The notes under the pieces were generated by a model. It did no database searches. It was not told the origin of the DNA and worked only from the letters and a program-made list of their open reading frames with translations. 59,549 nt of DNA from the IMG/VR virus record IMGVR_UViG_3300025668_000006, positions 1 to 59,549 of that record; one strand, 5' to 3'. Position numbers and translations under genes: made by a program. The DNA is from a virus. Below are positions 19,027 to 59,549 of this stretch, piece by piece. Positions within the stretch are counted from its first letter, which is position 1; each line of letters starts with the position of its first letter.

Positions 19027-19222
19027 ATTTTCCGTGAGGGTCGCTATCCCAATTCGTCTCTTTATCGTCTTTTTTATCAAAATACCAACATACTAATGCC
19101 AATAATACCCCTATACCTAACAAACTTTGTATAGTTGTGTCGTATCTTAACATAAACCATAAGATTTCTAAACCATTTGCACCATCAACTATTAACCAAT
19201 CAAGTTCTTCTTTTATGTTCAT
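19022..19222 (-). CDS. Small single-pass membrane protein at end of bilin operon
   Basis: This 66-residue protein has one strong hydrophobic segment at about 32-48 (IQSLLGIGVLLALVCWY), followed by a charged tail (FDKKDDKETNWDSDPHG). The N-terminal half (LDWLIVDGANGLEILWFMLRYD) is amphipathic. There is no signal peptide. Its ATG overlaps the ALA synthase stop in an ATGA arrangement, so it is translated with the bilin genes. It is not recognised by family. A membrane anchor or regulator for the pathway is conceivable but unsupported beyond position. Confidence 0.75.
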   Translation of the reverse strand: MNIKEELDWLIVDGANGLEILWFMLRYDTTIQSLLGIGVLLALVCWYFDKKDDKETNWDSDPHGKL

Positions 19223-40398: not shown

Positions 40399-40809
40399 TC
40401 AGATTTTACCATCATATTTAATTTCTTTTTCATAATAGTCTCTAATATCAGGTATCATTCCCAATTGTTCATCTTTAGGAAACGCAGATATGATTGGGTC
40501 ATAAATGTGTTCCTTCCCTTTATATACTTCAAAGTATGGGTCATTGCCAAATAACAAGTCCTTGTCGTTTAACAAATCGTAAAACTTATCTCCATAATCT
40601 CTCTCTATCCACTTTGCATAACATATCGCTACACAATAACTCTTTGCTGGGTAGATAAATCTTTCTACTTGTTCTACCCAATGTCTTTTCGCATTAAGAA
40701 TAATATCACTATCTTCCCATATAAGATATATCTCCTTATCGTTCAATGTATCTTTGTGAGTAGGATTTAATCTATGATATACTTCTTGTTTGAGTTTCCA
40801 TTCTTTCAT
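40399..40809 (-). CDS. Hypothetical protein at end of modification cluster
   Basis: This 136-residue protein is unidentified. It contains KEIYLIWEDSDIILNAKRHWVEQVERFIYPAKSYCVAICYAKWIERDYG (about 25-74) and an aromatic, charged C-terminus. It overlaps the MptE-like gene by 38 bases and ends the cluster before the late box at 40379. No motif shows a function. Confidence 0.68.
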   Translation of the reverse strand: MKEWKLKQEVYHRLNPTHKDTLNDKEIYLIWEDSDIILNAKRHWVEQVERFIYPAKSYCVAICYAKWIERDYGDKFYDLLNDKDLLFGNDPYFEVYKGKEHIYDPIISAFPKDEQLGMIPDIRDYYEKEIKYDGKI

Positions 40810-41566
40810 AACTTATATACTCCACATTCTTACATTCATTCCATTCAGGAATATTAACATTTAACATATTCTTTCTATTTACCTTATAAAACTTTACCCA
40901 ACGATTTAAATTGAATAGTTTACGCCATTGTAATATCCAATTTTGTAAATAATATTGACTAGGGTGTGTATCAGATTTATAAAAAGGTTGACCAGCATAT
41001 ATGTTATTAAATTTACTTGACATACTATATATGTCGTGTCCTATTAGATACACTTCTTTCAATTCTGATATTTCATTACAAGCAACAAAACCACTTGCAG
41101 GACCTGTTGCCCAAGTTAACTCGTCACCACCGTTAACTAAATCTGTAAAACTTTTTACTTTATCACCTGTCAACCAACTAATGTTGACCATATTCTTTCC
41201 TGTTTCTTTATCATTGTATCCGTGCAAAACAAAACTATTAGAACCTACTCTTTGATTTTCTACAAGTAAACCTGAATTCCTAATTGCTCTTATATGTCTA
41301 TACCCAGGAAAGAAACCACTTAACATAGTCTCGTAATGTTCGTGTGGTACAGGATTCCAATCTCTAAAATAACATTTAGCAGTATAACTATAACCTGAAT
41401 GATAAATGCTGTGCATAACAGGATGGTCCATCGCAACTAAAATATCAGGTGCAAAATCTTTGTATAGATTATTACAACCTATTATAACACCTCTTCCTTT
41501 TATAGTAGAAAATTTAAAACCTTTTCTACTTTGACCATTACCTATAAGAAACGCTCTATTTGCCAT
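40772..41566 (-). CDS. MptE/DUF115-like protein (putative nucleotide-sugar or transferase fold)
   Basis: This 264-residue protein starts with FLIGNGQSRKGFKFSTIKGRGVIIGCNNLYKDFAPDILVAMDHPV, a Rossmann-like lead (GNGxSRK...GCNN...PDxLVAxD) seen in MptE/DUF115-type and some phage glycosyltransferase-like proteins. Later TWATGPASGFVACNEISELKEVYLIGHDIYS resembles the second nucleotide-binding half of that fold. Glycan or nucleotide-sugar transfer to a virion protein is a guess. It overlaps the radical SAM gene by 11 bases. Confidence 0.66.
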   Translation of the reverse strand: MANRAFLIGNGQSRKGFKFSTIKGRGVIIGCNNLYKDFAPDILVAMDHPVMHSIYHSGYSYTAKCYFRDWNPVPHEHYETMLSGFFPGYRHIRAIRNSGLLVENQRVGSNSFVLHGYNDKETGKNMVNISWLTGDKVKSFTDLVNGGDELTWATGPASGFVACNEISELKEVYLIGHDIYSMSSKFNNIYAGQPFYKSDTHPSQYYLQNWILQWRKLFNLNRWVKFYKVNRKNMLNVNIPEWNECKNVEYISYERMETQTRSIS

Positions 41567-42527
41567 ATTTAAAACTATAAGTATCTAACAGATACCTATA
41601 CCCATTACAACCATCTTTTAAAGTTTTAACATATCTATAGTGTTCAGTTAAACATCTACCTAGATATTCACACTTACGACATATATCAGAAATATTTTGT
41701 TCTTTCTCTTTTTGACACCATACTTCGTAATCAGCAAAACTATCAAGTTCTAAAAAATACTCATTATCGTCTTTATCAAAGTCTAGTACAGCAAATTTAC
41801 CATTAGGTGTAATGTACAAGTGGTCATCGCTATATGCGTTATAATTACTATTAAGAGAATCTTTTATGTTCAATTCATTAATAAATGGAAATGGATTGTT
41901 CTTAAATGTTTCTTTACTTTGTATGCTTTTATATTCTAATATCATTCTTAATATAAAATCTTCAAAGTCAGCGTGTGTCGCACCTAATTGATTTGCTTGA
42001 TTTGTACTATAAGGTTTAATTTCAAATCCTTTAAAGTTTTTATTATCTATTGCTAGATGGTTCATCTTTGACAAAATATCTTGTGGCGATTTTTTCATAA
42101 CTTCTGGAGTTGCCAACATTAAAACAGAAAATTCAACAGGTAAAGTTTTCATATTTTCAAAAACTTGTTCGTGTTTCTCTCTAGTATCCATATCATAACT
42201 AACACTTATAAAATATTCAGGATTCATAAACTCACTTCTTACCATAGATAAGTTTGTGTTTATATTAATCTTGTCTTTATAATATATCTTAATTGCATTA
42301 GTAATCTTTTCTAGGTTATCTTCTTTTAATACACCTATCTCACCACCATACAAATCAATGTGTTCTATATCTCTATGAGTTTGTACTTCATTTAATAGTT
42401 CACTTAACTTAAAGTGGTCAATACATTTTTTATCACCTAATTGGTCAGGTGTAAGATAACACCAATGACATCTAAAATTACAGAAATAAGATGGATTGAT
42501 TGATAGATTAATCTTCGGCTTCGTCAT
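41556..42527 (-). CDS. Radical SAM protein D
   Basis: This 323-residue protein has the radical SAM cluster motif C16-x3-C20-x2-C23 (CNFRCHWC), a GGE motif in IDLYGGEIG, and a TIM-barrel-length body. The C-terminus has extra cysteines (CRKCEYLGRCLTEHYRYVKTLKDGC) like a shortened auxiliary-cluster domain. Radical SAM enzymes of this architecture modify peptides. It overlaps both neighbours and belongs to the same transcript as radical SAM proteins A-C. Substrate unknown. Confidence 0.86.
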   Translation of the reverse strand: MTKPKINLSINPSYFCNFRCHWCYLTPDQLGDKKCIDHFKLSELLNEVQTHRDIEHIDLYGGEIGVLKEDNLEKITNAIKIYYKDKININTNLSMVRSEFMNPEYFISVSYDMDTREKHEQVFENMKTLPVEFSVLMLATPEVMKKSPQDILSKMNHLAIDNKNFKGFEIKPYSTNQANQLGATHADFEDFILRMILEYKSIQSKETFKNNPFPFINELNIKDSLNSNYNAYSDDHLYITPNGKFAVLDFDKDDNEYFLELDSFADYEVWCQKEKEQNISDICRKCEYLGRCLTEHYRYVKTLKDGCNGYRYLLDTYSFKYGK

Positions 42528-43083
42528 AGTTCAATTCCTCAATGGACTTTAATAACATTTTTTTACATCTACTAAACATTAGTTTTCTAATAATATTTTG
42601 TTTCCAGTTTCTATCACTTTGAAATAATCCTATCCAGAGATAGTTATACTCCATATGATTTCTCATAAACAATCTATTGAGTTCAGCATACTCTTGTTCT
42701 TTTTCTAAAGTGTAATCTACTCTTTCTAATAGTTCACCTTTAACATTTGCTTGTTGTTCTTTTATCTTGTACGATATACCTGGTATGTGCATTGTCTTTG
42801 CAATTATATCGTTTATTCTATCTAACTTGTTTTTACCACCTAGTGCCAACATTATATAAAATGGCATATGGTGTTTCTTTGAGAAGTGTCCTTCACAACT
42901 TGATATTGGAAGAAAACCTTTTCTAATAAATTCGTGGCAATGAGGTAGTACACCTTTCTCAACTTCATTGTCAAAATCTTTATCAAATGGACTTACTGAT
43001 AGAGCTAGATACCCATTTGAATAATCTAAATCTTGTTCTTGCGAGGCGTGTATTCTGCCGTTTGGAAATATTTTATTTTTCAT
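42508..43083 (-). CDS. Cys/His-rich hypothetical protein
   Basis: This 191-residue protein is not recognised. Its central stretch LPHCHEFIRKGFLPISSCEGHFSKKHHMPFYIMLAL clusters Cys and His residues (HCH, SSCEGH, HH) that could bind metal; SSCEGH recalls, weakly, the SSC motif of Tyw3-like proteins. The C-terminal half is helical and basic. Its ATG overlaps the upstream oxygenase stop (ATGA), so it is coupled to it. Confidence 0.68.
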   Translation of the reverse strand: MKNKIFPNGRIHASQEQDLDYSNGYLALSVSPFDKDFDNEVEKGVLPHCHEFIRKGFLPISSCEGHFSKKHHMPFYIMLALGGKNKLDRINDIIAKTMHIPGISYKIKEQQANVKGELLERVDYTLEKEQEYAELNRLFMRNHMEYNYLWIGLFQSDRNWKQNIIRKLMFSRCKKMLLKSIEELNYDEAED

Positions 43084-43601
43084 ATATTATAATCAAAACA
43101 TCCTACAATTCGTTCATTGTTAATTAATTTAAATTTGCCAACTCTATGTTCCCATACTTTACTATGATTTAAAAATATTAAATCATTCTTACCTGGATAT
43201 AACCAACAAGACAATTCTTTTGTTTGTTTGTTTCTTACTGATAAAGAACCACCTTGTTCTTTATTACAGGCACTTGTAAAGTACATTAATATAGCAATGT
43301 TTGCTCCTTCTTTCAAATCATTGTGCCATAGTGTACTTTCATAGTCTACACCATTGACAATTTGTGGTCGTCCGTGTAATTTGTATTTACTAGACACCTT
43401 ACTAATATATTTATCACCCAAATATTTGTGGGTTGTGGCGAGTGCGTGTGCAACCTTTTCAGTATGAACAGCAACCGTATACTCTTTATCTGATTCTACA
43501 AAAGGTATTTGTACACCTTCAAAGAATTTAAATGGCATAAGGTCTTTATGTGGCCATACTCCATTTATTATCAGATTTGATAAATCGTGTTCACCCCTCA
43601 C
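43080..43601 (-). CDS. 2OG-Fe(II) oxygenase-like protein 2 of modification cluster
   Basis: The 173-residue reading has H93-x-D95 (LWHND), distal H152 (WEHRVG) and R164 (NNERIVG), the complete facial triad plus 2-oxoglutarate arginine of the prolyl-hydroxylase-like superfamily. GGSLSVRN...WLYPGKNDLIFLNHS is the usual beta-helix core. The start is uncertain. GTG at 43601 has GGAG 8 bases upstream; TTG at 43625 and ATG at 43538 are alternatives. It overlaps the next oxygenase gene by 11 bases. Confidence 0.8.
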   Translation of the reverse strand: MRGEHDLSNLIINGVWPHKDLMPFKFFEGVQIPFVESDKEYTVAVHTEKVAHALATTHKYLGDKYISKVSSKYKLHGRPQIVNGVDYESTLWHNDLKEGANIAILMYFTSACNKEQGGSLSVRNKQTKELSCWLYPGKNDLIFLNHSKVWEHRVGKFKLINNERIVGCFDYNI

Positions 43602-44043
43602 TTGTCCATCTCCATTTAATTGCAAGTCTTGTCTTTTCTCCCCAATAAGGCATTGCCCTATGTATTAAATGAGAGTCCATAATAAACATTGCGTTTTGTC
43701 TAAAGTCATAAGTCTCGTCTTCAACTTGTATCTGACCACCTTTGTTTAAATCACCTTGTAGATATAATATAATAGTCTTTTCTCCTTCTACATCGCTGTC
43801 AGTATGAAAACCTATAATGTTCTTTTCTATATCTTTACTATTTACAGAAATAACATATCTAACAATACAATGTTTTAATCCAGGTACATTTAATTTACAA
43901 ATACTATCTGCCCACTTCCAATCATCTGGTAATTTCTTGTGAACATTCTTCTCATAGATAGGATATTCTTTTCCTAGATTACCTAGTTCACCAATCATAT
44001 GATTGAGTTCTAAATTTGTCATTACATTATGTTTAACTTGCAT
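43591..44043 (-). CDS. 2OG-Fe(II) oxygenase-like protein 1 of modification cluster
   Basis: This 150-residue protein has H80-x-D82 (GFHTDSD), distal H128 (HLIHRAMP) and R139 (TRLAIKW), plus GGQIQVED between them, so all iron and 2-oxoglutarate ligands are present. It is a minimal single-domain oxygenase. Start ATG 44043 is chosen over 44055, which has no ribosome-binding site; support is modest. It lies between radical SAM C and a second oxygenase, suggesting hydroxylation steps alongside radical chemistry on one substrate. Confidence 0.82.
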   Translation of the reverse strand: MQVKHNVMTNLELNHMIGELGNLGKEYPIYEKNVHKKLPDDWKWADSICKLNVPGLKHCIVRYVISVNSKDIEKNIIGFHTDSDVEGEKTIILYLQGDLNKGGQIQVEDETYDFRQNAMFIMDSHLIHRAMPYWGEKTRLAIKWRWTSEG

Positions 44044-45127
44044 ATTCTTTCTCATAAGGTGTCATTTGTATATATGGTTTATTATTTGCGACTAAAATAT
44101 CGTGTCCTATTCTTTTCATCTTCTCACAATGTTTTTCTACAACTCCTGCTTCTTTGTAATCTTTAACGGTCTTTCTACAACCATTACATATATTAAACAT
44201 AGGACAACTATAACAACTTTTCTTCATTGTAGATAAATTTAAATCATCTTGTAAAGGTGTAAAAAACTTACCTTTCATTTCTTCTTCAAAGTCTATCTCT
44301 TTGTCTTTATCATCACCAAATGCACCACAACTATAGTAGTCGCCATCTGGTTGTAAACATCTTATACCTTCATCACATTTTCTACTTAACGGACAACTCG
44401 TAGCAGTATCATTAATTGCTAACATCATCTGTCTAGTATTAAACTCCCAAGGCGCTAAACCTGCCTTATAAATCTCTACATACTTCTCATATATATCTGA
44501 TAACAAAAACGGCTCTTTTTGTTCGCCACTTGCCATTGCATAATTTAACTTACATTCTACACCTGTCTTCTCTTCTCTCCAGAAGTTATGTAATGTGCCT
44601 TCAGGTATTTTCTGTTCAGACATCTTCTTTGCAAGTTCAACATTCTTTATTGCGTTGTGTTCATTCTCTCTTGTAATAACAGATATAAAGTCTGGTCTAT
44701 AACCACAATGTTCTAACATTGCGTTTGAACACTTCCAAAAGTCTTCTTCTGTAAATTCTGAATAGTCACCTTTTAATCTACCACCACCATATTGAAAAGA
44801 AGTTGTGATACCAACTCTTTCGTTATTAAATAAGTCAACCCACTTACTAGGTTTCTTATAGAACGGCCACAAGTTTGTTGTTAATGCAAGTGAAGTAGTA
44901 TATTCTTTTTCATCTAACCAATTAATAATCTTCCAATAGTAATCAGGTTCCATCATTAATGGATCACCACCGTTTACTATGATTGTTTTTGTTTCTGGGA
45001 ATCTTTCTAAAAAACGAAATATCTGGTCGTGTTTTAACCAGTTCTTTTTCTCATCTGTAAGTTGTGTACTAGAGCAAAATGTACATTTGAAATTACAAAG
45101 TTCAGTAGGTTTAATTATTAAGTCCAT
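44033..45127 (-). CDS. Radical SAM/SPASM-type protein C
   Basis: This 364-residue protein has C11-x3-C15-x2-C18 (CNFKCTFC) and a GGD motif (VNGGDPLM). The C-terminal cysteine-rich domain runs CPLSRKCDEGIRCLQPDGDYYSCGAF...CYSCPMFNICNGCRKTV...C, the arrangement of SPASM auxiliary iron-sulfur clusters. SPASM enzymes act on ribosomal peptides. ATG 45127 is taken as start, as AGGA lies just upstream; an in-frame TTG at 45139 would add four residues. It overlaps the next gene upstream by 10 bases. Confidence 0.87.
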   Translation of the reverse strand: MDLIIKPTELCNFKCTFCSSTQLTDEKKNWLKHDQIFRFLERFPETKTIIVNGGDPLMMEPDYYWKIINWLDEKEYTTSLALTTNLWPFYKKPSKWVDLFNNERVGITTSFQYGGGRLKGDYSEFTEEDFWKCSNAMLEHCGYRPDFISVITRENEHNAIKNVELAKKMSEQKIPEGTLHNFWREEKTGVECKLNYAMASGEQKEPFLLSDIYEKYVEIYKAGLAPWEFNTRQMMLAINDTATSCPLSRKCDEGIRCLQPDGDYYSCGAFGDDKDKEIDFEEEMKGKFFTPLQDDLNLSTMKKSCYSCPMFNICNGCRKTVKDYKEAGVVEKHCEKMKRIGHDILVANNKPYIQMTPYEKEYAS

Positions 45128-45750
45128 TTTCCTATCCAATCAAATCCTGTATTACATTCTCTATTTCTAATCCAATAATCTTTTAGTTTGCCTTCAATAA
45201 CTTTGTCAAATCCAAACTGCCACATTATTTCTCTATGATATGGTTCTTTTTGTGCTCTCATCTGATTCATTGTTAAGTGTAACCAATCAAAGTAAGTACC
45301 AGACGGACATAATATATCTCTACCTTTAAATATGTTTATTGTATCACACCACATTTGTCTAATTAGTTTTCTGTTTTCTGTCATAGGTCTATTCTTCATA
45401 TATCCTGCATATTTTAAAGAACCGACTATAATGTACTCATCATAGATATGAAACATTCCTACACCCTTAATATAAGTGTTAGGCCTCTTGTTTTGAACCC
45501 ATTGTCTTTCACCTATTGTTTTTTGTGCAATCTCATATAGTTCACCATCTTCTTCTTTCTTGCCTAACCACAAAAACATATGTGCTTGTCTACCATCAAT
45601 TCTAGGTAGATATGGTTTCTCAACTGGAAAGTTATCTAGTTGTACTTCTATATGTTTAGGAAAATTATAAGGTAAATTAGTTTGCGATATAGTTTCGCTG
45701 TAATCGTACATCTTCAATATATCTGTGCGTAAGTTTGTAAACACATTCAT
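45118..45750 (-). CDS. Hypothetical protein between radical SAM B and C
   Basis: This 210-residue protein is not recognised. It is aromatic-rich (FLWLGKKEEDGELYEIAQKTIGERQW; GVGMFHIYDEYIIVGSLKYAGYMKN; PSGTYFDWLHLTMNQMR). Start ATG 45750 is strongly supported by AAGGAGG six bases upstream, even though this puts 74 bases of the gene inside the upstream radical SAM frame. A later ATG at 45711 has no ribosome-binding site. Strong independent initiation suggests it is needed at high level. Role unknown. Confidence 0.74.
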   Translation of the reverse strand: MNVFTNLRTDILKMYDYSETISQTNLPYNFPKHIEVQLDNFPVEKPYLPRIDGRQAHMFLWLGKKEEDGELYEIAQKTIGERQWVQNKRPNTYIKGVGMFHIYDEYIIVGSLKYAGYMKNRPMTENRKLIRQMWCDTINIFKGRDILCPSGTYFDWLHLTMNQMRAQKEPYHREIMWQFGFDKVIEGKLKDYWIRNRECNTGFDWIGKWT

Positions 45751-46729
45751 CCAACTCCTCCTTATATCTATAATCGTGGTTCATAAAACAGCCAAGTGTA
45801 CATCTATCTAAAAATTCGCAACTACTACAATTATACTTCTCTAGGAAAGAGTTTTCTATTATACTATTGTCTCTAGGTTTAATGGGTGACTTGTATTGAC
45901 TTATATCTTGTTCTTCTTGTACAAGGTTACCACATTGACATAATGTACCATCTGCTAATACAAGTTTTGAAACTCTACAACTTGCATAATTCTTTTTGTT
46001 AAATATCCAATCTCTAACAGGATGAACATTAGGATATTTGTCAACACAATGTTTAAAAAACTTTAATAATAGTTCATCACTAGGCATATTAAACTTTGCG
46101 TGTTCATCTGGCATATAATAATCAAAGTAAATATACTTACCTTGTTCATACAGATAGTCAAAGTATTCATCGCCTTCATTTAAATAAAATTTTATATTAG
46201 GTCTTGTAAGTAAACAAGAAAAACAGGTTACTTCATCACCCCAATAATCTACATTAGATTTAAATATTTCAAAGTCTTTTTTATTAAATCTACCTCGTGG
46301 GTCATAACTTGTTGTAAGTCTACAAGGTATATCTTCTTGTCTGGACCAAGTGAGTAAGTCCATAATAAGTTCATTACCATCAGGTGATGTAACCAAGTTA
46401 GATACCCAATTGATTGAAAATTCTTTATTGTATTTTTGACATATCTTTTGTATGCCTTTTGATAGGAGTTTGTAACCTTCATTTAAACTTCTGTTATAGA
46501 TTGCAGGTGCAAAGACTTCGCCACCCATAATATTAAAGGTGACCTTCATATACATTTCTTTTGAGATAAATTTTTCTATAGAAGGAAGTTTGTCAACCAC
46601 ATTATCAACACCGATTTTATTGTCGTGGTTCTGCCAACAGAAATTACAACGCAAATTACAAAATTCAAATAAATGAATAGTGTACTCTTGCTCTGGGTCT
46701 CTTTTGGGGTCTATTAAAAACTCTCGCAT
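45677..46729 (-). CDS. Radical SAM/SPASM-type protein B
   Basis: This 350-residue protein has C24-x3-C28-x2-C31 (CNLRCNFC), GGE (IMGGEVF) and a C-terminal cysteine-rich domain (CRVSKLVLADGTLCQCGNL...CSSCEFLDRCTLGCFMNHDYRYKEELDEC) of SPASM type. N-terminal residues 1-20 extend beyond the barrel. It lies 8 bases from the upstream unknown gene (46738-47853) and overlaps the downstream unknown. Peptide modification is inferred from architecture. Confidence 0.88.
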   Translation of the reverse strand: MREFLIDPKRDPEQEYTIHLFEFCNLRCNFCWQNHDNKIGVDNVVDKLPSIEKFISKEMYMKVTFNIMGGEVFAPAIYNRSLNEGYKLLSKGIQKICQKYNKEFSINWVSNLVTSPDGNELIMDLLTWSRQEDIPCRLTTSYDPRGRFNKKDFEIFKSNVDYWGDEVTCFSCLLTRPNIKFYLNEGDEYFDYLYEQGKYIYFDYYMPDEHAKFNMPSDELLLKFFKHCVDKYPNVHPVRDWIFNKKNYASCRVSKLVLADGTLCQCGNLVQEEQDISQYKSPIKPRDNSIIENSFLEKYNCSSCEFLDRCTLGCFMNHDYRYKEELDECVYKLTHRYIEDVRLQRNYIAN

Positions 46730-46737
46730 TTTAACTC

Positions 46738-47853
46738 CTATGAGTTAGCGAATAGTCTGTATTTTCCTAATGTGTCTGTATCGTTAGATTTCTTTAATGA
46801 GAATAGATATTGTAAAAATGTATAATTAATATTTCCAATATCAAATCTAGGAATAAAAGATAGACTAGATGGACTATTCACCGTTTCAGTTATAATTGTA
46901 TCAAAATCGTTTGAAGATAAACTTGAAGCACAAGCCTTATCTAAATGGTTCATAAAGTAATCAGGATCCGGAGAGTTCTGGAAATCATATAGGTCTTTAA
47001 TTAAAGTTTTCAATGCAGTTTGTTTGTCTGTTGAAAGACCGTCAATGTTTGCAATATTTACAGCGCCTACATTTGCAGTAGGTTTTTGTGTAAATACATC
47101 TTCGTCAGCAAATGGTGCTAATGGTGTAATACCTGAAAATGGATTGTCGTTATTTAAATCAACATCATCACTAGTATAACCTAATGCAGTTTGTTGATTA
47201 GTATTTAAAAGATTTAGAGCAGCACCTTCTCTACTATCTGTTAACACTTCTTTATAAAATCTTTTTAAGAATAAATGCCAAGTAGACAATAAGTTTGCTT
47301 GGTGAGTATCAGCACCTGCAAAGTATTCGCCTAATAATAATTCAATTGAGAAATTTAAATTAAGAGCTTTAATTCTATCTAAATCAAGTGTAGGTAATAC
47401 ATTAAAATATCCTGCAACATCTCCTAGACCAGCATTAATTTTTGTTAATGCAAGTGTGTGAGTTGGTTGCAATTGTGTATTTGCAATAATTTTTTCGTGG
47501 TGTAAATGAATATCTAAAAACTTCTGTACTGCTGTTTGGTCAACAAATGGTAACATAGTTTTTAACCAGGTTACTGATAAGTTTAAGTATGCTTCACTAT
47601 CGCAGTAAATAATAACTTTAGTACCTAGAGTACCTTGTTTAGATTTTACATCTTCAAAGAAACCAGTTAAGTCATCATACTTACCTGCCATTTCATTAAC
47701 ATTGTGAGAGTAGTTAATTAAAGTTCCTCTATATGTAGTTTGTAGTTCCTGGTGCATTTCATTACCAGTTTCTGCTGATATTACATATCTGTTTGTATGA
47801 CAATCTATTGAATCGTCAAACGCTAAATAAACTTTATTAAATAAGTGTAGCAT
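46738..47853 (-). CDS. Hypothetical protein in modification cluster (371 aa)
   Basis: This 371-residue protein is not recognised. It starts LHLFNKVYLAFDDSIDCHTNRYVIS and has helical, histidine-bearing segments (FLDIHLHHEKIIANTQLQPTHTLAL; ADTHQANLLSTWHLFLKRFYKEVL). The C-terminal 60 residues form a separate-looking segment. There are no transmembrane spans. It sits between radical SAM B and the 221-residue unknown, one base from the latter. Possible roles are substrate recognition or scaffold for the enzymes; nothing in sequence proves this. Confidence 0.72.
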   Translation of the reverse strand: MLHLFNKVYLAFDDSIDCHTNRYVISAETGNEMHQELQTTYRGTLINYSHNVNEMAGKYDDLTGFFEDVKSKQGTLGTKVIIYCDSEAYLNLSVTWLKTMLPFVDQTAVQKFLDIHLHHEKIIANTQLQPTHTLALTKINAGLGDVAGYFNVLPTLDLDRIKALNLNFSIELLLGEYFAGADTHQANLLSTWHLFLKRFYKEVLTDSREGAALNLLNTNQQTALGYTSDDVDLNNDNPFSGITPLAPFADEDVFTQKPTANVGAVNIANIDGLSTDKQTALKTLIKDLYDFQNSPDPDYFMNHLDKACASSLSSNDFDTIITETVNSPSSLSFIPRFDIGNINYTFLQYLFSLKKSNDTDTLGKYRLFANS

Positions 47854-47854
47854 A

Positions 47855-48520
47855 TTATTTTTTCTCTTTACCTTTTAAATATTCTTTAGTATCAAATTTA
47901 CCTTCGGCAACTGCCCAAGTCATTAAGAATAATGGATTACTTTCTGTCGCCCAATATTCAAATAAAGATTTACCTTTAAACATATAATCTTTAAAGTACT
48001 TTGTATAGTTCTTAACAATACTTTCTTTTTTTATTTGATAATAACTATAAAATTCTTTGTGTTTTAATAATGAAACAAAGTTAATACCTCTAACATCTTC
48101 TGTCTCGTCTTTAGGATAACTTTCAACAAATTCACTAAAAGCACCTTCGCCAACAATTGACATATTATATAATGGTAGACTTTCTAATTTGCCTTCCCAC
48201 TTGTCAAGTATATCTTTGTTCTTCTCTATAACACTCTTATATTTATCTGTCTTTGACAACCCTTTGTGTTCAAATAATAGAGCGATTACTTCTTTTTCTA
48301 ATTTAGGTATATTAACTAACATTTGTGTGTTAAGATATTCACTAATTAGTTCTTCGTCCATATTTTTAATATCACAAGGTATATCTAAATTACTTAAATA
48401 TGTTAAAAACTGAGCACCTTTCAATGTGCTGTTTTCGTAATCAATAAGATAACTTTCTGTTTTGTCTTCAAAGTATTTTTTTAAGTCTTTCAATTCAATA
48501 GGTACAATAGTATTAATCAT
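47855..48520 (-). CDS. Hypothetical protein next to CHxS protein (221 aa)
   Basis: This 221-residue mostly helical, charged protein (LKDLKKYFEDKTESYLIDYENSTLKGAQFLTYLSNLDIPC; PKLEKEVIALLFEHKGLSKTDKYKSVIEKNKDIL) is not recognised. It follows the CHxS-tailed protein by 2 bases. RiPP pathways usually encode a leader-binding or chaperone protein beside the precursor, and this is the natural candidate by position. That is inference; I see no PqqD-like motif. Confidence 0.72.
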   Translation of the reverse strand: MINTIVPIELKDLKKYFEDKTESYLIDYENSTLKGAQFLTYLSNLDIPCDIKNMDEELISEYLNTQMLVNIPKLEKEVIALLFEHKGLSKTDKYKSVIEKNKDILDKWEGKLESLPLYNMSIVGEGAFSEFVESYPKDETEDVRGINFVSLLKHKEFYSYYQIKKESIVKNYTKYFKDYMFKGKSLFEYWATESNPLFLMTWAVAEGKFDTKEYLKGKEKK

Positions 48521-48522
48521 TA

Positions 48523-49296
48523 TTATCTTCTTCCTCTACTTCCGTGGCAACTACTATGGCAACTACTATGACATATAGTTTTTGTTAATGTATAAGTGTT
48601 ACCTCTTTCAGTACTATATGCGTTTGCAAGTGTTGTCATAAATCCTTCTAAATTTGTATCGTCAATAACCTGACCAGGTTGTAAACTACTAGGTTGTGAT
48701 GGATTTAATGTTGTTCTTTGTCCAGTTGTTAAGTGTGCAATTTGTGTATCTGAATATTGTTGTCCTGCACCTGTCATATTAACAACAGCGTTTGTGTTTT
48801 TAATATTAGTATAGTTATTCATTTCATTTTTAAGTGTACTATAAATCTGATTTGCAGTAATTAATGAACCTGGACTACCAACACTAGTACCTGTAATACC
48901 TATACTTACAGCACTTATTTCTGCTAAAGTATTAACCGTTCCTACAGCACCTGAAGAAGTGCCTGATATAATATCGTTTTGTATAAATCCTGTTTGACCG
49001 GCACCTGGATTAATTGTTCTTAATTTTAATACATTGCTTGAATAACTAACTACGATACCAGTTGTTGCAGTTATAGTAGAGTTAACCGTTTCACCTACTG
49101 AATAAGTTCCGGTTACACCTGTTAGTGTTAATTCAAATCCGTCAACAACACCACCAAAATCAGAAGCAGTAAATGAAGAGTGTCCTGGTAGATTATCAGT
49201 ACCCCATACAATATGGTGGTCTGCTACATCTGTTACCAGTTCTTCAAATCTATCAACTATGTTTTGACTTGTTATCGGGTTGTTTAAAGTTACCAT
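48523..49296 (-). CDS. Virion-like protein with C-terminal CHxS repeat tail (candidate modified substrate)
   Basis: This 257-residue protein has a short N-terminal region (IVDRFEELVTDVADHHIVWGTDNLPGHSSF), then a beta-rich, Gly/Thr/Ser-rich middle (SVGETVNSTITATTGIVVSYSSN, QNDIISGTSSGAVGTV) like the repeats in the 2033-residue tail protein. A helix follows, and the C-terminus is CHSSCHSSCHGSRGRR (242-257). The tail is three tetrapeptides CHSS, CHSS, CHGS, then RGRR. Its gene overlaps radical SAM/SPASM A by 7 bases. A Cys-rich repeat at the C-terminus next to a SPASM enzyme resembles RiPP precursors. A metal-binding tip is the main alternative. Confidence 0.82.
   Translation of the reverse strand: MVTLNNPITSQNIVDRFEELVTDVADHHIVWGTDNLPGHSSFTASDFGGVVDGFELTLTGVTGTYSVGETVNSTITATTGIVVSYSSNVLKLRTINPGAGQTGFIQNDIISGTSSGAVGTVNTLAEISAVSIGITGTSVGSPGSLITANQIYSTLKNEMNNYTNIKNTNAVVNMTGAGQQYSDTQIAHLTTGQRTTLNPSQPSSLQPGQVIDDTNLEGFMTTLANAYSTERGNTYTLTKTICHSSCHSSCHGSRGRR
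48526..48573 (-). repeat. CHxS tetrapeptide repeat coding segment
   Basis: The last 16 codons encode CHSS-CHSS-CHGS-RGRR. The first two units are nearly identical at the DNA level (TG[T/C]CATAGTAGT), so the repeat may have arisen by local duplication. Confidence 0.85.
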
Positions 49297-50321
49297 TTCG
49301 CCTCACTTTGTTTTTTTAAGTGCTTCATAAGAGATTTAGGAGCACCACATATATTATCTTGCCACGCTAATTGGTGACAATCGCCACCACAATACTTAAA
49401 TACTTCACATTCAAAGCATTTAGGATTTCTTGCTACTTCACAAGCAACATTTTCTAATCTCTTAGGACTATTTATAAGTTCTACTAGAGGGTCATCTATA
49501 GTTCCAAAATTAAACTCTGGAGCTGCGTTAGGACAACCACCTATTGTGCCAGTTGCGTTAAGTGTAAATAGTTTTTGTTCACAATCTCGGCAAAATGTAC
49601 CATCTTTTGTTGAACCAGTCTCAAATTTTGAATAAATTGTCTCAAAAAACTCATTATCAAACCAATCTCTTGTATTATACTCAATAGATTGTTCGTGCAT
49701 TTTCAAAAACCACTTGTCTTGTTCTATATTACTAGGAAATATCTCTGGATGTAAGTTTGCATTACCATTTCCAGTCAATCTTTCTAGTGCCATTTCTTTT
49801 ACACCCAAATCTTTAACCCATTTTAGTAATTCAATAGGTTCAATTCTAATTGTGTCTTTGGTTACTGATATGAATAGTTTAATATCAACACCTTCACTAA
49901 TTAAAGTCTCTACATTCTTACGCCATAAGTTTGCTTGCTTCTCATTTGCAAATCTTATGTTAGGATCCCAACTAGTTCCACATCTATTTTTAAGTGGACC
50001 TTTGATAAAGTCAATATGTTCTTGTTTTAGTTTAAATGTTAAGTTAGAAGTTATGCCCATTGATTGTTGAATCCACAAATCTTTTGTGTTCTCATAGACA
50101 TATTGCATTTCAGATACAGGAACTAAAAACGGTTCACCACCGTGTAGTTCTAAATGTGCTGTATCGTGTTTTTGAAAATTATATTTTCTGAAATTTTTAA
50201 GCCACTTGATAGTCTTATCTGGATTCCAGTAGACTTTAGGACCATTAGTACCTGAAGTAAAGCAATGTTTACAATTTAGATTACAGGTCTCGGTTGTTTT
50301 AAGATAAAACATCCAATTCAT
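49290..50321 (-). CDS. Radical SAM/SPASM-type protein A (anSME-like)
   Basis: This 343-residue protein has C13-x3-C17-x2-C20 (CNLNCKHC), GGE in LELHGGEPF, and a full SPASM-type C-terminus (FCRDCEQKLFTLNATGTIGGCPNAAPEFNFGTIDDPLVELINSP...CFECEVFKYCGGDCHQLAWQDNICG) with the seven-or-more cysteines of anSME-like peptide maturases. ATG 50321 shares a base with the cupin stop and has AGGGG seven bases upstream; an in-frame start at 50348 is less supported. It directly precedes the CHxS-tailed protein with a 7-base overlap, as rSAM enzymes often lie beside their precursor. Confidence 0.9.
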   Translation of the reverse strand: MNWMFYLKTTETCNLNCKHCFTSGTNGPKVYWNPDKTIKWLKNFRKYNFQKHDTAHLELHGGEPFLVPVSEMQYVYENTKDLWIQQSMGITSNLTFKLKQEHIDFIKGPLKNRCGTSWDPNIRFANEKQANLWRKNVETLISEGVDIKLFISVTKDTIRIEPIELLKWVKDLGVKEMALERLTGNGNANLHPEIFPSNIEQDKWFLKMHEQSIEYNTRDWFDNEFFETIYSKFETGSTKDGTFCRDCEQKLFTLNATGTIGGCPNAAPEFNFGTIDDPLVELINSPKRLENVACEVARNPKCFECEVFKYCGGDCHQLAWQDNICGAPKSLMKHLKKQSEAKW

Positions 50322-50800
50322 TATACGACCCCTATACTTAACCCCCAAGTATCTGCTTCGTTTTCAACATAATGTTTTACACCTTCTTCTATGAATATAC
50401 CTTCGTCATCATATACTGGTTTAATAACACCATCTAAAGATACTTTCTTTTTGCCTTTGACAACATATAAGTAAACATCTTTATCATCTTTATGTTCTTT
50501 AAAACTAATACCTGGTTTCTGATTTACAAATAAATGAATATCTTGTCTTTTCTTTCCTGTGATATTCAATACTACTTCGTCTAAAACTTCTTTTAACCAG
50601 GCTACATCTTCTAAGCCTTCCACCTTAATAGTTTTAAATCTATCGTATTCTCTTAACCATTCGCCATAAGACATATGTTCTTTAACCTCACGGTCAAGTC
50701 CTTCGTCATCTATGTAGAATAGTTGTCTTGCTTCGTATCTATTGTGTGATTGGATTTCTTCTTTTAATCTGGAAATCCATAAAGTTGTATGTTCGTCCAT
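50321..50800 (-). CDS. Cupin/JmjC-like protein
   Basis: This 159-residue protein has a cupin core HLFVNQKPGISFKEHKDDKDVYLYVVKGKKKVSLDG with H103-x-D105 and a distal H143 (GVKHYVEN), the metal ligands of cupin/JmjC-type oxygenases. An N-terminal helical region precedes it. It could be a third hydroxylase of the cluster or a sugar-binding cupin. Translation of the next gene is coupled to its stop. Confidence 0.78.
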   Translation of the reverse strand: MDEHTTLWISRLKEEIQSHNRYEARQLFYIDDEGLDREVKEHMSYGEWLREYDRFKTIKVEGLEDVAWLKEVLDEVVLNITGKKRQDIHLFVNQKPGISFKEHKDDKDVYLYVVKGKKKVSLDGVIKPVYDDEGIFIEEGVKHYVENEADTWGLSIGVV

Positions 50801-50811
50801 AATATATCTCC

Positions 50812-52113
50812 TTATTTACCAACGATTGCTTCTATAACTCTCTCTTCTGTAGAATCGTCATTGACTAAACTTTTTCCAATTAATGCACCGTTTCTTGGTT
50901 CTGCTTCAGCTCTAGCACATCCTGCTTTATCGCAAGATACTAACATATCGCCTTTTCTTACAGGACCACATACTCTTACCGGTACTCTTCCTGTCATTGC
51001 AACCGTAGCTGTAGTACCTTCTAAACTGCCGTTCATAATAAAGGCAGGTTTGTCTGATTGAACACCAATAACTTTTGTACAATGATTTTCAGTACATATA
51101 GTTACCTCAGCAACACCACCTATACATAGGACGGTACCTACTGGATATTCTCTATCAGATTTATACTTTTCTGCCAAGTCAGCGTATCTCGCTTGCGTAG
51201 CAGTTGTTGTTAAAATATTTGTTGATGGATTGTAATATAAACTTGAATCTGCTTTTAGATTATTAGTACCTGAATTACTATCAACAAAAGTTAAATATCT
51301 TGTTGCGTTTTGAGTTGATTCAGAAGTTATATTTACAGCATTTGCTAATGAAGCAGTACCTGTAATAGTATTTGCAACTAAAGTATCAACCGTTAATGTT
51401 GCAGAAGCTAATCCTGAAAGTTTTGCAAGTGTAACCGTGTTATCAGCAATTTGTAAAGTACCAATAGCATTATCTGCTATCATAGTACTTGTAACCGTAT
51501 TTGTATCACCATTAGTAATAACGGTACCACTAGCGTTAGGTAGTGTGATTACATTATCTTGTGTTGGTTCATCTACTCTTAAAGTTGTTTCAAATGAGTC
51601 TGCTGTTAGTCCTTCAAATAACATTGAAGCACCATTGATTGTTAATCCTGCACCAACAAGTGTACCACCGGCAGATATACCACCTGTTGTATTTAATTGT
51701 TCGTTACCAAAATCAATTGTACCACTTGCAGAAGTAATTGAAGAAGTACCAATCTGTATGTTTGCAATCTCAGCTGTTGTCGCAACATCAATTGTTGATA
51801 GACCAGTTAAGTTTGTATTTAATCCGAGTGTTAGTGTATCTGGTGATGATACCGTTGCAGTAAGACCTGTGCCACTTGCTACGGTTAATGTATTACCAGA
51901 GGCAATCGCCTGAACATTTGTTCCGTCTGTTAATGTAAAACCAGCAGCTGCAATCGCAATACTATTGATTTCGTTAACAGCACCAATTACAGAAGTTGCA
52001 GATAAAGTAGGATCCAGAGTGGCAATATCACCAAAGTCTGAGGACGCTAATGCGTTAAATTCTATTCTTAATTTATCTAAACTATCTGTACTATTTACCT
52101 GTCTTACAGCCAT
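50812..52113 (-). CDS. Tail-fibre protein with C-terminal G2-peptidase-like domain
   Basis: This 433-residue protein starts RQVNSTDSLDKLRIEFNALASSDFGDIATLDPTLSATSVIGAVNEIN, continues with fibre-type repeats (MLFEGLTADSFETTLRVDEPTQDNVITLPNASGTVITNGD), and ends with ARYADLAEKYKSDREYPVGTVLCIGG...GRVPVRVCGPVRKGDMLV, a C-terminal domain common in cyanophage fibres and related to self-cleaving chaperone (peptidase G2) domains. This domain is unusually rich in cysteine (about seven, for example ICTENHC and SCDKAGC). It opens the stretch immediately upstream of the modification cluster. Confidence 0.8.
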   Translation of the reverse strand: MAVRQVNSTDSLDKLRIEFNALASSDFGDIATLDPTLSATSVIGAVNEINSIAIAAAGFTLTDGTNVQAIASGNTLTVASGTGLTATVSSPDTLTLGLNTNLTGLSTIDVATTAEIANIQIGTSSITSASGTIDFGNEQLNTTGGISAGGTLVGAGLTINGASMLFEGLTADSFETTLRVDEPTQDNVITLPNASGTVITNGDTNTVTSTMIADNAIGTLQIADNTVTLAKLSGLASATLTVDTLVANTITGTASLANAVNITSESTQNATRYLTFVDSNSGTNNLKADSSLYYNPSTNILTTTATQARYADLAEKYKSDREYPVGTVLCIGGVAEVTICTENHCTKVIGVQSDKPAFIMNGSLEGTTATVAMTGRVPVRVCGPVRKGDMLVSCDKAGCARAEAEPRNGALIGKSLVNDDSTEERVIEAIVGK

Positions 52114-52347: not shown

Positions 52348-55300
52348 TTAAATCGCTAATGCGATACCTCTCATATCTCGTAAGATTGGTGGATAACTAG
52401 AGTTAGTTCCTTTTAATACAATCTTAATTTGAAACGCAGTAAAGGCGTTCAATTGTTCTTGTGAATATTGATATTCTCTAAAATCAAAATCATCTTTAGA
52501 TTTTGCAACTGAATTATCTTCAACCCCACCAGTATTGAAAGGTCTCCAGTCAATCTCTCCAATAGTTCTAACTTCATCAGCACTTGTTGTTCTAAAGTAA
52601 ACTTCAACTTTAGAAGAATCTCTAACAACTTGTGTTAGTCTAATATCTAATGCAGTTGAGTTATTAATAAGTGTAACCGGTTTCGTAATATATTGAGACG
52701 CAGTTGATGAACCATTTGCAGAAGTTTCAGCAACATAGTTAGGTGTATTACCAGTAGTTGGATCGTTTAATCTATTTGCAATACAGAAAACACTACTTCT
52801 ATCTAAATCAATTACTGGAGACAATTTACTACTTGTCGTTGTTAATTTCATAATAGTATAGAAAGATTTTTGTCCTGCCATTCTAGTTGTTTCATTTGGT
52901 CCAGACATAACTGCTTGTGGCGCAGTAAAGTAAATATCGTCTACTAATGTAACCGATTGTCTATTACCTTCAGCAACTAATGAATATGGTGTTTGAGAAC
53001 CGTGAAGTGATTTACTAGATGTTGTTCTAATAAATGGTTCAATACCTGTACCAGGAACGGTCATAGTTTGTAGACCACCTAGGTTTAATACATCAAATTG
53101 TTTATTACCGGTAACAAGTACTCCTGTACCTCCAATATCACCATCAGTATTTGCAGTTCCTGCTGATGTAATATCAAAACTATCTAATGTTATATTAGAA
53201 ATAGAATTATATGTTCCGTTTATATCTGTATGTGGAATACCATTGTGTGTACCATTAGGAACACCAGAGATAGTAACCACAGAATTTGTATCGTGTAAAT
53301 TGTGATTTGGAAAGAAAACTCTAATTACACTTGAAGCGTTTGTTGTTCTTAATCCGTTTTGTCTAATATTTTGTGCCGGTAGTTCTTTACTTCCTAGATG
53401 AACCGTACCTACAACACTACTAAACTCACATCTTTTCATTGTGAATTTCATATCTTCGTTTTGTTCAGCAGTCCAAGTTGAACCGTTTTGAGATTTGAAC
53501 ATAACACCAGCATATGGTTGTTTAGATATTGTTCTATTAGAACCGATATTTGTTTCTCCTAATCTACCTACATACATATTGTAATCATTTGAGTTAGATA
53601 GTACCGTCATTGCATATTCAACTTTATCTTGTATGTAAATAGGCGCAGGGAATGTAAATGTTGTTTTAACTGAACCATCAATACTTGTATTTACAGAAGA
53701 TGGATTCAATGAAACTTCACCAAATGGTAATACTTTACTTCCAGGATAACCATTAACCGTATTTCTAATTTGAACGGTTACAGGAATGTTTGCGTCTTTT
53801 GTTGAAAAGAATAAATCAACAGAAGATATGAATACACCACCAGGTTCATCTGTCATAAATGTTTGTGATAGTGGATCAACCCAACCAATAATTCTTGTAC
53901 CTTGTCTTGTACTTGTTTGTAAAACGGTTTGTGTATCTGTAACCGTTTGTTGTACACCTCTAAATTCTCTTGTAGAAACAATTGTGTCTCTAACGGTATT
54001 TAATAATCCTCTTGCAATATATTCAGCATTAGCCGCAGTAGCAACAGCAGCTGCGTCTGTAGAGTTAGTAGAAGAAGAAGTTAATCTAAATGTTCTTTCT
54101 CCAGTTCTCCATCTAGGATTTGTATCTACTTTAGGATCCGGTATTGTGAAAACTCCTTCAACAGAACCTGAACCGTCAGTAATTAAGTTACCTCCAACTG
54201 AACCACCATCTGGTGTACAATAAGAAGCAATATTTACATTATCAAAGAATGGAAATACTCTTGTATTTGGTTTTAATCTTGTAGCTTTAAATGCAACATC
54301 ACGGCTTCTGATAAATGGTACAAATGCAACACTAACAACTCTATCTCCCATAGATGTTCTTATCGTTTGAGGTACGGCAGTTGTTGTAATACCTGACCTA
54401 CTTTGGTTAACTTGGTTGATAGAAGTAATTTCTGTTCTTTGTACAACAGCACGACCACTTCTAAATGTTCCACCTGAAGCTGTAGTTGAAGATGTTAATG
54501 CTCTTCCAGTCCAGTTAGTTTGCCATTCATTCCATACCGTTCCAAGTGAGATTTCATTTTGATTTGTGATACCACTTTGTCTTTGTAATTGGTCCCACGC
54601 ACCTGTATTTGAGTTAACTACTAAATCAGGAGTTCTTTGTGTTTCTCTCCATTCATCACTTGATGGTGTTAAATCTATTGTTCCCATCCAACTGAAAATT
54701 GCAAATGGGTTAACATTAATTGCTTTAGAAGCAAAAGGTTGATTTATTAAATCTACTTCTGTATATGGTAAAGTTAATACATCACCAGTTTTTTGGTAGT
54801 TTGCAGCTGCTCTATCAGTAGCAACTAGTGCTGTACCATCTTCGTCAATCTCTTCTAGTTTTACAGCGTCTTGGTTAAACAAAGGTCTTAATTCACCTTT
54901 TGCATAATCAATAGAACATCTGTATGAACCGTTGGTTACTTCACCGATACCGTGACCGTTAAAGTTATCTACAACAAATCCATTTTTAAATCTATCAAAA
55001 CCATCAGCGTCTTGTATCTGTAAAGATTGAGCCGCACTTTCTAATAAAGACAATTGAGTGTAATATTCAATTCTATCAATTTTCTTATCAATGGCACCAA
55101 TATCTCTCATTGTATATCTTCTATTTTCTACCGTCTCATATGATACATCATCTGGAGACAATGTATAAGGTGGTAAAGAAATAGTGTATAGGTGCATTGC
55201 GTTATCAATAGAACCTGGTTCTTGTGGTATACTATCTTCAGCACCTTTAAGTACTTCAAAAGTACCTTCTTTATTTAAGAATAATTTATCAACTCTTCCT

Positions 55301-58461: not shown

Positions 58462-59549
58462 TTAAAATTCTATGATTAACTTAACATTCTCCGTTTGGTC
58501 AACACTTCTGTTAACCGGTGCTCTATTCTCAATGTACATTACATCGCCAGAGTCCTGGTCAAGTTCAGAAGTTGCATAACCAGAAACTAAAGAAACATTA
58601 TTAACCGTTTCAGTATTACCAGTTGGTGTTCCTGTTGCACTTGAAGTAGAACCTGTAATAACATTTATTCCACTAAATTCAGTTCCGTCTCCATTTGCGT
58701 CAACACCTTCACTATTATATCTTGTTTGTGTGTAGTATAACATATTATTTGCAGTATCAAATGATACTACTTTACCTACAGCACCTGTATTCGTTTGTGT
58801 GATTATTTCGTCTGATTGAAATGTACCAGCACCTGCGTCTAATCTAATTGCTTTTGTTGCTCTTAATGTTGGTGTAGAAGAAGGAGAACCAGCAGATTTA
58901 GGATCTCTAATTAATGCAACTCTTCTAAAATCGTTGGCAGTTGTAAAGTCACCAGAGTTTGCTGTTTCAGCACCTTCAAATGAAGTATTAAGAATTACAA
59001 AGAAACCACCTAGTTCTTCGTGTGGGTCAAATCCGTGACCACCTTTTGGACCAATAATGCAATCTAGTTCAGCACCAGTTAATGCACCACCAGAGGCAGC
59101 ATTAATATCTGATACTCTTACATTTGCAAAAGTATATCCTAATGGTGTTCCTGTTGGAACAACAGAAGTAACCGAACCACTTGAAATTGTAACCGTACAA
59201 GTTCCGTTAGCACCGTCACCTCTAATAGGAATATTAGTAAATGTTCCTGCAGTACCACCAGTACCAGGAGTTTTAATTTTGATAATATCTATAGAACCGT
59301 CTTTAGCATTTGTCGTTGTTGTACTATTTGTTGAGATACCCATAAAGTCTGTTGATAAAAAGTTTGCTTGTTGAGCAGCAGACATAGTGTACATATATTT
59401 CCACTTGTAACCATCAGAAGTTTCTAAAATAAGAATAGAAGCGCCAGTAGGTTCTATCGTTGATGGTGTATTATTATCGTTATCTAAACATTTGTAAACT
59501 TCAAAGTTGGAATTAAGAACATAGAAGTTTGCGTCATATAAATTCGTTG
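58462..59549 (-). CDS. Tail/baseplate structural protein, partial at right edge
   Basis: The frame is open through the right edge, so the start is outside the window. An internal ATG at 59394 is not the likely start, because the preceding residues (FYVLNSNFEVYKCLDN...TSDGYKWKYMYTMSA) are a conserved block of marine myovirus structural proteins. The rest is beta-rich, with GVPLGYTF- and GETVNNVSL-like segments. It ends 12 bases before the DUF4815 gene. It is probably a baseplate or tail component. Confidence 0.82.
   Translation of the reverse strand, partial: TNLYDANFYVLNSNFEVYKCLDNDNNTPSTIEPTGASILILETSDGYKWKYMYTMSAAQQANFLSTDFMGISTNSTTTTNAKDGSIDIIKIKTPGTGGTAGTFTNIPIRGDGANGTCTVTISSGSVTSVVPTGTPLGYTFANVRVSDINAASGGALTGAELDCIIGPKGGHGFDPHEELGGFFVILNTSFEGAETANSGDFTTANDFRRVALIRDPKSAGSPSSTPTLRATKAIRLDAGAGTFQSDEIITQTNTGAVGKVVSFDTANNMLYYTQTRYNSEGVDANGDGTEFSGINVITGSTSSATGTPTGNTETVNNVSLVSGYATSELDQDSGDVMYIENRAPVNRSVDQTENVKLIIEF

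Follow-up and report, generated by a model that had tools for sequence, protein, structure and literature searches.

Virus record IMGVR_UViG_3300025668_000006 of IMG/VR comprises 59,549 bases, the whole of which is analysed here as one stretch (the window). By its T4-type terminase and UvsW, it is a fragment of a T4-like phage. Fourteen genes form a one-strand run at 40399-50800, with intergenic gaps of -74 to +8 bases. At its head lie the three genes of main concern: a cupin, a radical S-adenosylmethionine (rSAM) enzyme designated rSAM-A, and a 257-residue protein ending in the 16-residue tail CHSSCHSSCHGSRGRR, called the CHxS protein after the units CHSS-CHSS-CHGS that precede its terminal RGRR. 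They are followed by X, Y, rSAM-B, a 210-residue protein, rSAM-C, two proteins resembling 2-oxoglutarate (2OG) oxygenases, a 191-residue protein, rSAM-D, and proteins of 264 and 136 residues, so that three further rSAM genes share the run. A sequence-only reading had singled out the CHxS protein and its rSAM neighbour and proposed that the phage crosslinks the C-terminal tail of one of its own virion proteins. The gene models agree with that description: the open reading frame of the CHxS protein was confirmed on the minus strand, and the 7-base overlap between the two genes is correct, with rSAM-A starting at an ATG at 50321 (possibly a TTG at 50348) and ending at 49290.

A tblastn search with the CHxS protein of the window found no match in 50,697 phage records, although tails exist there; body divergence and the BLAST low-complexity filter probably conceal relatives. 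Because of this result, we relied on pattern searches and on searches led by rSAM-A. A DNA pattern for CHxxCHGxRGRR, which left out the first CH, matched 93 stretches in IMG/VR. An open reading frame terminates exactly in the tail in 92 of them, which led us to reject a chance motif (the sole chance match is L061), and the first CH is present in all 92 real tail records despite not being requested. A looser pattern that included the stop codon was searched in 84,980 bacterial and archaeal genomes, yielding 19 stretches; 16 of these, from 14 assemblies, decode as real tails, while L122, L123, and L129 do not.

Pooling the loci gave 145 tail proteins that are distinct across their last 60 residues. 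Their tails comprise 62 different 16-residue peptides encoded by 136 different DNA sequences; because so many DNA versions specify so few peptides, selection acts on the peptide, and a DNA-level element was rejected. Ser occupies the three x-S places in 139, 121, and 132 of the 145 proteins, with mainly Asn or Ala otherwise. In a 40-sequence alignment, the mean frequency of the commonest residue is 0.91 in the tail and 0.57 in the body, the latter taken over columns occupied in at least half of the rows. The Cys, His, and Arg of the tail (9 of 16 positions) were selection criteria for the pattern sets and for this alignment, so their invariance is fairly shown only by the rSAM-led set described below (76 of 80 loci) and by the unrequested first CH; over the seven tail positions not fixed by selection, the frequency is 0.79. 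The 142 complete proteins range from 124 to 319 residues, and 108 of them contain no Cys outside the tail. At one locus (L178:7001-8378), inspected by eye, a sequence like the N-terminal domain of the CHxS family stands in a separate, glycine-rich, tailless gene, followed by a short tail gene.

The tail and rSAM-A pair in both directions. Starting from the 92 tail records in IMG/VR, rSAM-A is adjacent in 63, lies one or two genes away in 8, and is missing from the fetched stretch in 21; a search of whole records recovered it in 17 of these 21 (18 of 22 if L063 is also counted), bringing the total to 88 of 92. In the opposite direction, the query was an alignment of 14 rSAM-A proteins (A2), every one from a tail-bearing record, and the best 80 of 361 relatives were examined, many at loci on the same records as the tail-led set. 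A gene ending in CHxxCHxxCHxxRxRR and a stop codon lies within 3 kb of rSAM-A at 76 of these 80 loci. At the remaining four, the contig ends less than 250 bp from rSAM-A, so none with room is tailless. Distant tailless relatives may exist, as they do in Bdellovibrionota, since the query was entirely tail-bearing and only the best 80 of 361 relatives were taken. The cupin is likewise immediately upstream of rSAM-A at 78 of the 79 phage loci with room. Tails occurring widely without an rSAM neighbour, which would have told against the sequence-only reading, were not observed; there are only a few exceptions.

The layout varies somewhat. Two short tandem tail genes (about 125-145 residues) occur away from the rSAM genes in L020, L021, L028, L035, L055, L056, L059, L060, L084, L086, and L092. 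In eight of these, L055, L056, and L092 being the others, rSAM-A and the cupin are found elsewhere on the same record. As assigned by eye, L219, L225, and L236 have an additional gene with a CX3CX2C motif between rSAM-A and the tail gene, and in L239 the intervening genes are different ones, a few of them oxygenase-like.

The pairing extends to named jumbo phages. rSAM-A, rSAM-C, rSAM-D, and X each match the identical seven of the 50,697 phage records (Phosso, two records of Atu_ph07, SURPRISE13, FLC6, FLC8, and DT01), with 42-52% identity for rSAM-A. Tails could be read in five of the seven: CHTSCHASCHSSRSRR in Phosso, CHSSCHASCHNSRSRR in one of the two Atu_ph07 records, CHSSCHTSCHGSRGRR in both SURPRISE13 and FLC6, and CHTSCHTSCHSARGRR in DT01. 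In FLC8, the alignment extends through the last residue of the tail protein. The order cupin, rSAM-A, tail protein is kept in the five phage regions displayed, the cupins of Phosso and Atu_ph07 having been identified with alignment A1. Such rSAM genes could instead be auxiliary metabolic genes, serving DNA repair, host metabolism, or growth at low oxygen and unrelated to the tail protein, as is asserted without tests in the available portions of reports on DT01 (PMC8541153) and on Campylobacter phages (PMC2853527). We consider this extremely improbable, given the peptide-maturase-like SPASM architecture, the constant pairing with the tail gene, and the position beside structural genes.

rSAM-A is of the SPASM type, as first read: it scores 33.2 bits against TIGR04085 (cut-off 27). 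The Cys residues of its CX3CX2C motif (C12, C16, and C19) are invariant in 14 of 14 A2 sequences. The seven-Cys SPASM pattern is CX9-15GX4C...CX2CX5CX3C...C, and rSAM-A carries it as CX10GX4C...CX2CX5CX3C...C (C246/G257/C262, C301/304/310/314, and C324), again invariant in 14 of 14. Several named families were tried with NCBIfam and rejected. DynA is the best match, at 45.6 bits against a cut-off of 450. The anaerobic sulfatase maturase model TIGR03942 gives 42.4 against 349.45, PapB 41 against 340, HxsB 31.9 against 370, and SCIFF 22.8 against 425; rSAM-C reaches 30.5 bits against 267.9 for HxsC.

Among solved structures, rSAM-A is nearest to anaerobic sulfatase maturases (E 4.8e-10), with ChlB and other rSAM proteins next. 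This similarity raises the question of whether rSAM-A, acting like a sulfatase maturase, converts the third Cys of the tail to formylglycine, as the context C-H-G-S-R resembles the sulfatase motif C-x-P/A-x-R. The maturase residue Asp277 (chain numbering), which we take to be catalytic, corresponds to Pro263 in rSAM-A, a residue shared by at least 90% of the A2 rows, and formylglycine generation was rejected on this ground. Moreover, the third motif position is Gly, Ser, Asn, or another residue, with Pro in 0 and Ala in 1 of 145 tails, and the first two repeats would be left unexplained. Together with the low TIGR03942 score, these observations make the conversion very unlikely.

The cupin retains H103-x-D105...K118...H143 in 9 of 9 sequences of alignment A1. 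An HxD...H triad with Lys is the pattern of JmjC/Cupin_4 Fe(II)/2OG oxygenases. In profile searches, quercetin dioxygenase is the best match; the histidyl hydroxylase MINA ranks lower (2e-5), and a putative asparaginyl hydroxylase and a Cupin_4 protein also match. On these motifs and matches, the cupin is a putative Fe(II)/2OG protein hydroxylase.

We modeled the CHxS protein of the window with AlphaFold2. The whole model has a mean predicted local distance difference test (pLDDT) score of 90.2. The body is ordered, and the tail, which comes after a beta strand, is flexible, the last two ten-residue blocks, in which it lies, having pLDDT values of 64 and 54. The sequence-only reading had described a beta-rich middle resembling repeats of the large tail protein. 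The beta-rich middle is real (residues 52-127), and its likeness to phage baseplate domains is weak: it aligns with a baseplate protein domain (9f4a_A, Z 7.7 over 71 residues, root-mean-square deviation 2.3; 5hx2_A, Z 6.8), but unrelated translation-factor barrels (EF-Tu/IF2-gamma) reach Z 6.3. This insert accounts for most PDB matches of the model; it is present in the closest relatives of the window protein and missing from most rows of alignment A3. Matches in BFVD include cyanophage structural proteins and a 296-residue Atu_ph07 protein, the length of gp170.

Location on the particle gains support from Atu_ph07, whose host is Agrobacterium C58. In the available part of the report on this phage, virion proteins detected by electrospray ionization tandem mass spectrometry cluster in coding sequences 31-76, 170-215, and 284-329 (PMC6102473). 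The Atu_ph07 tail protein is FDI40_gp170, which opens the cluster 170-215 provided that paper and record share their numbering, an agreement seen for the portal protein, gp198. Judging from the cluster boundary given there, gp170 itself was presumably detected in virions. We infer that the CHxS protein is probably a virion protein, as the sequence-only reading had proposed, with the mass spectrometry cluster now lending support.

Metal binding is known from the tips of phage spikes and fibres, and the tail, with three Cys and three His, comes after a beta strand in the model. It could therefore be an unmodified site for Zn, Fe, or Cu that closes a spike or fibre tip, with rSAM genes co-travelling for other reasons; the retention of Cys and His at every assessable rSAM-led locus speaks for such a site. 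This explanation leaves the 76 of 80 rSAM-A loci with a tail and the 78 of 79 with a cupin unaccounted for, and the modeled tail is flexible, although AlphaFold2 models no metals. We regard it as improbable.

A related cassette is also found in cellular genomes, among them some relatives of predatory bacteria. The four Bdellovibrionota contigs read carry rSAM-A, the tail protein, X, and relatives of rSAM-B, rSAM-C, rSAM-D, and the 136-residue gene. The cassette sits among ordinary chromosomal genes; one 382-kb contig that carries it, for example, also encodes ribosomal protein S20. Across 290 Bdellovibrionota genomes, an rSAM-A-like gene occurs in 16 and the exact tail in 8, all within those 16, and a reversed control pattern matched none. 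The hypergeometric probability of this overlap, ignoring kinship and sampling, is 1.1e-11, a value that overstates independence because the 290 genomes include the 8 tail genomes already known. An rSAM-A relative accompanies the tail in 12 of the 13 tail-bearing cellular assemblies searched. In the bins assigned to Euryarchaeota, Rhodobacteraceae, and Bacteroidetes, the tail lies on contigs of 12-92 kb, which may be phage contigs.

Near the Bdellovibrionota loci, we scanned seven genes, one in each of seven genomes of which four have the tail and three lack it, chosen by eye as pilin-like or large and leaving out the cassettes of G024, G026, G031, and G032. All seven carry the tail-fibre chaperone domain Peptidase_S74 (L157:16655-17692, L160:2055-3242, L161:9628-10917, L252, L254, L256, and L258), and in three of them the N-terminus additionally scores as that of a type IV pilin, at or above the cut-off. 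The tailless loci scanned (L254, L256, and L258) each have such a neighbour. As a separate observation, proteins of about 200 residues near the cassettes of L144, L147, L157, L160, and L161 share a second conserved C-terminal tail, [GN]RHWV[KQ]VK, which is possibly the target of another rSAM enzyme of the cassette.

The simplest account of these findings is modification of the tail, since a conserved, flexible segment rich in Cys, His, and Ser is tied to a radical enzyme and, among the phages, also to a putative oxygenase. We infer that the tail is the substrate, and we consider it likely that rSAM-A, in phages probably together with the cupin, modifies this tail on a virion protein. The CHxS protein would fold as a small virion-associated protein of baseplate or fibre, with three CHx[S/N] units and a final RxRR extending from its C-terminus as a flexible strand. 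By means of a SAM-derived radical, rSAM-A, encoded usually by the next gene upstream, would oxidise residues of the CHxS units; crosslinks are the likely products, for instance thioethers of Cys or bonds between Cys and His. The phage cupin, encoded on the far side of rSAM-A, would probably hydroxylate residues of the same tail. As to the chemistry, a thioether, a Cys-His bond, and a hydroxylation are guesses. X, Y, the three remaining rSAM enzymes, and the 2OG enzymes may help in this or modify additional sites or partner proteins, after which the modified protein would be built into the particle.

In the known rSAM maturases, the leader to which the enzyme binds is separate from the core. 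The tail could by analogy be a docking tag or C-terminal leader: the enzymes would bind CHxS/RxRR and modify a different region of the protein, or else a partner, for instance the fibre. The presence of several enzymes for one tail suits this possibility, as does the resemblance of RxRR to a recognition element, retained even in the degenerate tail of L250, CHSNCYTPPPKSRSRR, which lies beside an rSAM-A relative. Yet the conserved part consists of the potentially reactive Cys, His, and Ser; conservation of the body is low, and in most of the proteins Cys is confined to the tail. We consider docking fairly unlikely.

Several observations weigh against modification of the tail by rSAM-A. Whole-record searches did not find rSAM-A in four of the tail records: L069, whose contig starts inside the tail gene, and L055, L056, and L092, which are 33-37 kb fragments with tandem tail genes. 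In Bdellovibrionota, 8 of the 16 genomes with an rSAM-A-like gene have no exact tail; one of them, G096, holds the degenerate L250 tail, and the rSAM genes of the other seven form a separate, Bdellovibrionota-only clade (L254-L258, L260, and L261). The only A-like rSAM of G031, a genome with a tail, is on another contig and belongs to this same, mostly tailless clade, and the rSAM-A search of the 1-Mb bin G028, which has a tail, found none. The Bdellovibrionota cassettes gave no match to the phage cupin, which therefore cannot be essential to the tail everywhere. rSAM-A lies far under the cut-off of each maturase model tested, and co-occurrence by itself does not show whether any of the four rSAM enzymes modifies the tail, or which one. 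The protein body is large and folded, unlike a precursor of a ribosomally synthesized and post-translationally modified peptide (RiPP). Finally, radical SAM enzymes are sensitive to oxygen, which may be present in the habitats from which many of these phages derive. The sequence-only reading is supported in part, strongly by co-occurrence and, for virion location, by Atu_ph07; Cys crosslinking with 2-Da losses stays a proposal, and rSAM-A scores far below the thioether-maturase models tested. The original pairing was correctly read, and the finding has grown to include the cupin, the 14-gene run, and the Bdellovibrionota cassettes.

The remaining genes of the run and its surroundings are listed below. 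X yields a confident fold (pLDDT 93.1), for which fold searches gave no convincing match (best Foldseek E against the PDB, 0.11), and neither X nor Y has a Pfam match above cut-off; X is possibly an adaptor. rSAM-C scores 25.3 bits against TIGR04085, slightly under the cut-off of 27. For the tail-fibre-like protein before the cassette, two unnamed families outscore phrog_19602. No tRNA genes were found in the window. Elsewhere in it, a heme oxygenase gene (21097-21756) adjoins a ferredoxin-dependent bilin reductase (20412-21131), with an aminotransferase next (19219-20445), and another 2OG-Fe(II) oxygenase gene (15883-16515) lies far from the cassette and close to the terminase gene.

Table 1. 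Features of the gene run and its surroundings in the window. Counts of relatives are out of 174 sources, some of which are one record counted twice.
Feature	Position	Strand	Basis or remark
T4 gp8-like baseplate protein	58462-59394		
DUF4815 protein	52348-58449		
Tail-fibre-like protein, directly before cassette	50812..52113	(-)	phrog_19602 tail fiber 4.8e-6; relatives in 102/174 sources
Cupin, predicted Fe(II)/2OG protein oxygenase	50321..50800	(-)	Pfam Cupin_2 30.3 bits, cut-off 27.2
rSAM-A, radical SAM/SPASM enzyme, predicted tail modifier	49290..50321	(-)	TIGR04085, Cys motifs, pairing with tail gene
CHxS-tail protein, 257 residues	48523..49296	(-)	body residues 1-241, C-terminal tail residues 242-257
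Tail codons CHSS-CHSS-CHGS-RGRR	48526..48573	(-)	sequence; 145 distinct tail proteins from related loci
X, conserved 221-residue protein (phrog_20767)	47855..48520	(-)	relatives in 144/174 sources
Y, conserved 371-residue protein	46738..47853	(-)	relatives in 122/174 sources
rSAM-B, second radical SAM gene	45677..46729	(-)	phrog_1802 4.9e-42; CX3CX2C at residue 24
210-residue protein	45118..45750	(-)	Pfam scan: no match
rSAM-C, third radical SAM gene, SPASM-like C-terminus	44033..45139	(-)	phrog_1802 8.5e-56; Radical_SAM above cut-off
154-residue putative 2OG-Fe(II) oxygenase, HTD...H motif	43591..44055	(-)	weak Asp_Arg_Hydrox, E 0.032, below cut-off
181-residue putative 2OG-Fe(II) oxygenase	43080..43625	(-)	2OG-FeII_Oxy_3 E 2.7e-5, 25.5 bits, slightly under cut-off 27
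191-residue protein	42508..43083	(-)	relatives in 10/174 sources
rSAM-D, fourth radical SAM gene	41556..42527	(-)	phrog_1802 4.9e-33
264-residue protein, few relatives	40772..41566	(-)	relatives in 4/174 sources
136-residue protein, last in run	40399..40809	(-)	relatives in 14/174 sources; Bdellovibrionota cassette matches L158, L159, L161, L163

A broader reading would join the phage and bacterial loci. With an undescribed and widespread rSAM system (in phages with an Fe/2OG oxygenase), viruses would equip one of their particle proteins with a modified Cys-His tail that is possibly polycyclic. Given the related Bdellovibrionota machinery near pilin-like genes with a tail-fibre chaperone domain, the modified tail would be a general device of cell-attacking fibres or tips, with a role in adhesion, metal loading, or penetration. 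We advance this reading tentatively, as possible but somewhat short of an even chance. The cassette offers a specific, testable target, a single 16-residue tail, in growable phages such as Atu_ph07. If the tail is modified, virus particles bear chemistry known mainly from peptide natural products. A simple sequence tag would then mark this chemistry across phages and Bdellovibrionota, and the system would be a source of new enzymes for modifying peptides, along with a short tag suited to fusion.

Richness in rSAM genes has been recorded in other phages. The available portions of published reports list rSAM, cupin, and 2OG genes for FLC6 and S13, and rSAM genes for RP12 and for DT01 (PMC8541153), and give twelve rSAM genes in a T4-like environmental genome (PMC5332604). 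Multiple phage rSAM genes are called highly unusual in the accessible parts of two papers (PMC2853527, PMC12390700). According to the same parts, the Campylobacter phages CP220 and CPt10 are likewise rSAM-rich, with interchangeable modules (PMC2853527), and Aeromonas phage 332-Vera has eight rSAM genes in its structural cluster (PMC12390700); neither account, as far as available, describes a tail. No Campylobacter phage among the 50,697 records matched rSAM-A, rSAM-C, or rSAM-D at the limits used. In the accessible portions of the open-licence literature, we found no description of the tail or of rSAM modification of a virion protein.

Among characterized enzymes, the anaerobic sulfatase-maturating enzyme (4k36-4k39) matches rSAM-A in the rSAM core and SPASM region, whereas rSAM-A has Pro at its Asp277 position and faces a different substrate motif. 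The cupin shares the HxD...K...H pattern and profile matches with JmjC/Cupin_4 hydroxylases of the MINA and YcfD class, but it is much smaller and single, and quercetin dioxygenase and plain cupins match it equally well or better. In the HxsABCD system, H-x-S units repeat at a C-terminus. The CHxS tail likewise has C-terminal H-x-S repeats and rSAM partners with weak HxsB and HxsC matches, but places a Cys before each His, has a four-residue period, and comes with enzymes far below the model cut-offs. Among the proteins of the run that were scanned against NCBIfam, none matched HxsA or HxsD; the tail protein, X, and Y had no match at E 0.01. The name His-Xaa-Ser system appears in the available part of PMC9062424. 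A parallel in gene arrangement is with rSAM/SPASM RiPP maturase pairs (sactipeptide, ranthipeptide, and cyclophane), with which the cassette shares a SPASM enzyme beside a short, repeated, conserved C-terminal motif containing Cys. In place of a short precursor with leader and core, the motif here sits at the very C-terminus of a folded protein. The partner protein, by contrast with those pairs, is 124-319 residues long, folded in the one model, encoded in a phage structural region, and of no recognised precursor family, and in the window it is accompanied by four rSAM genes and a cupin.

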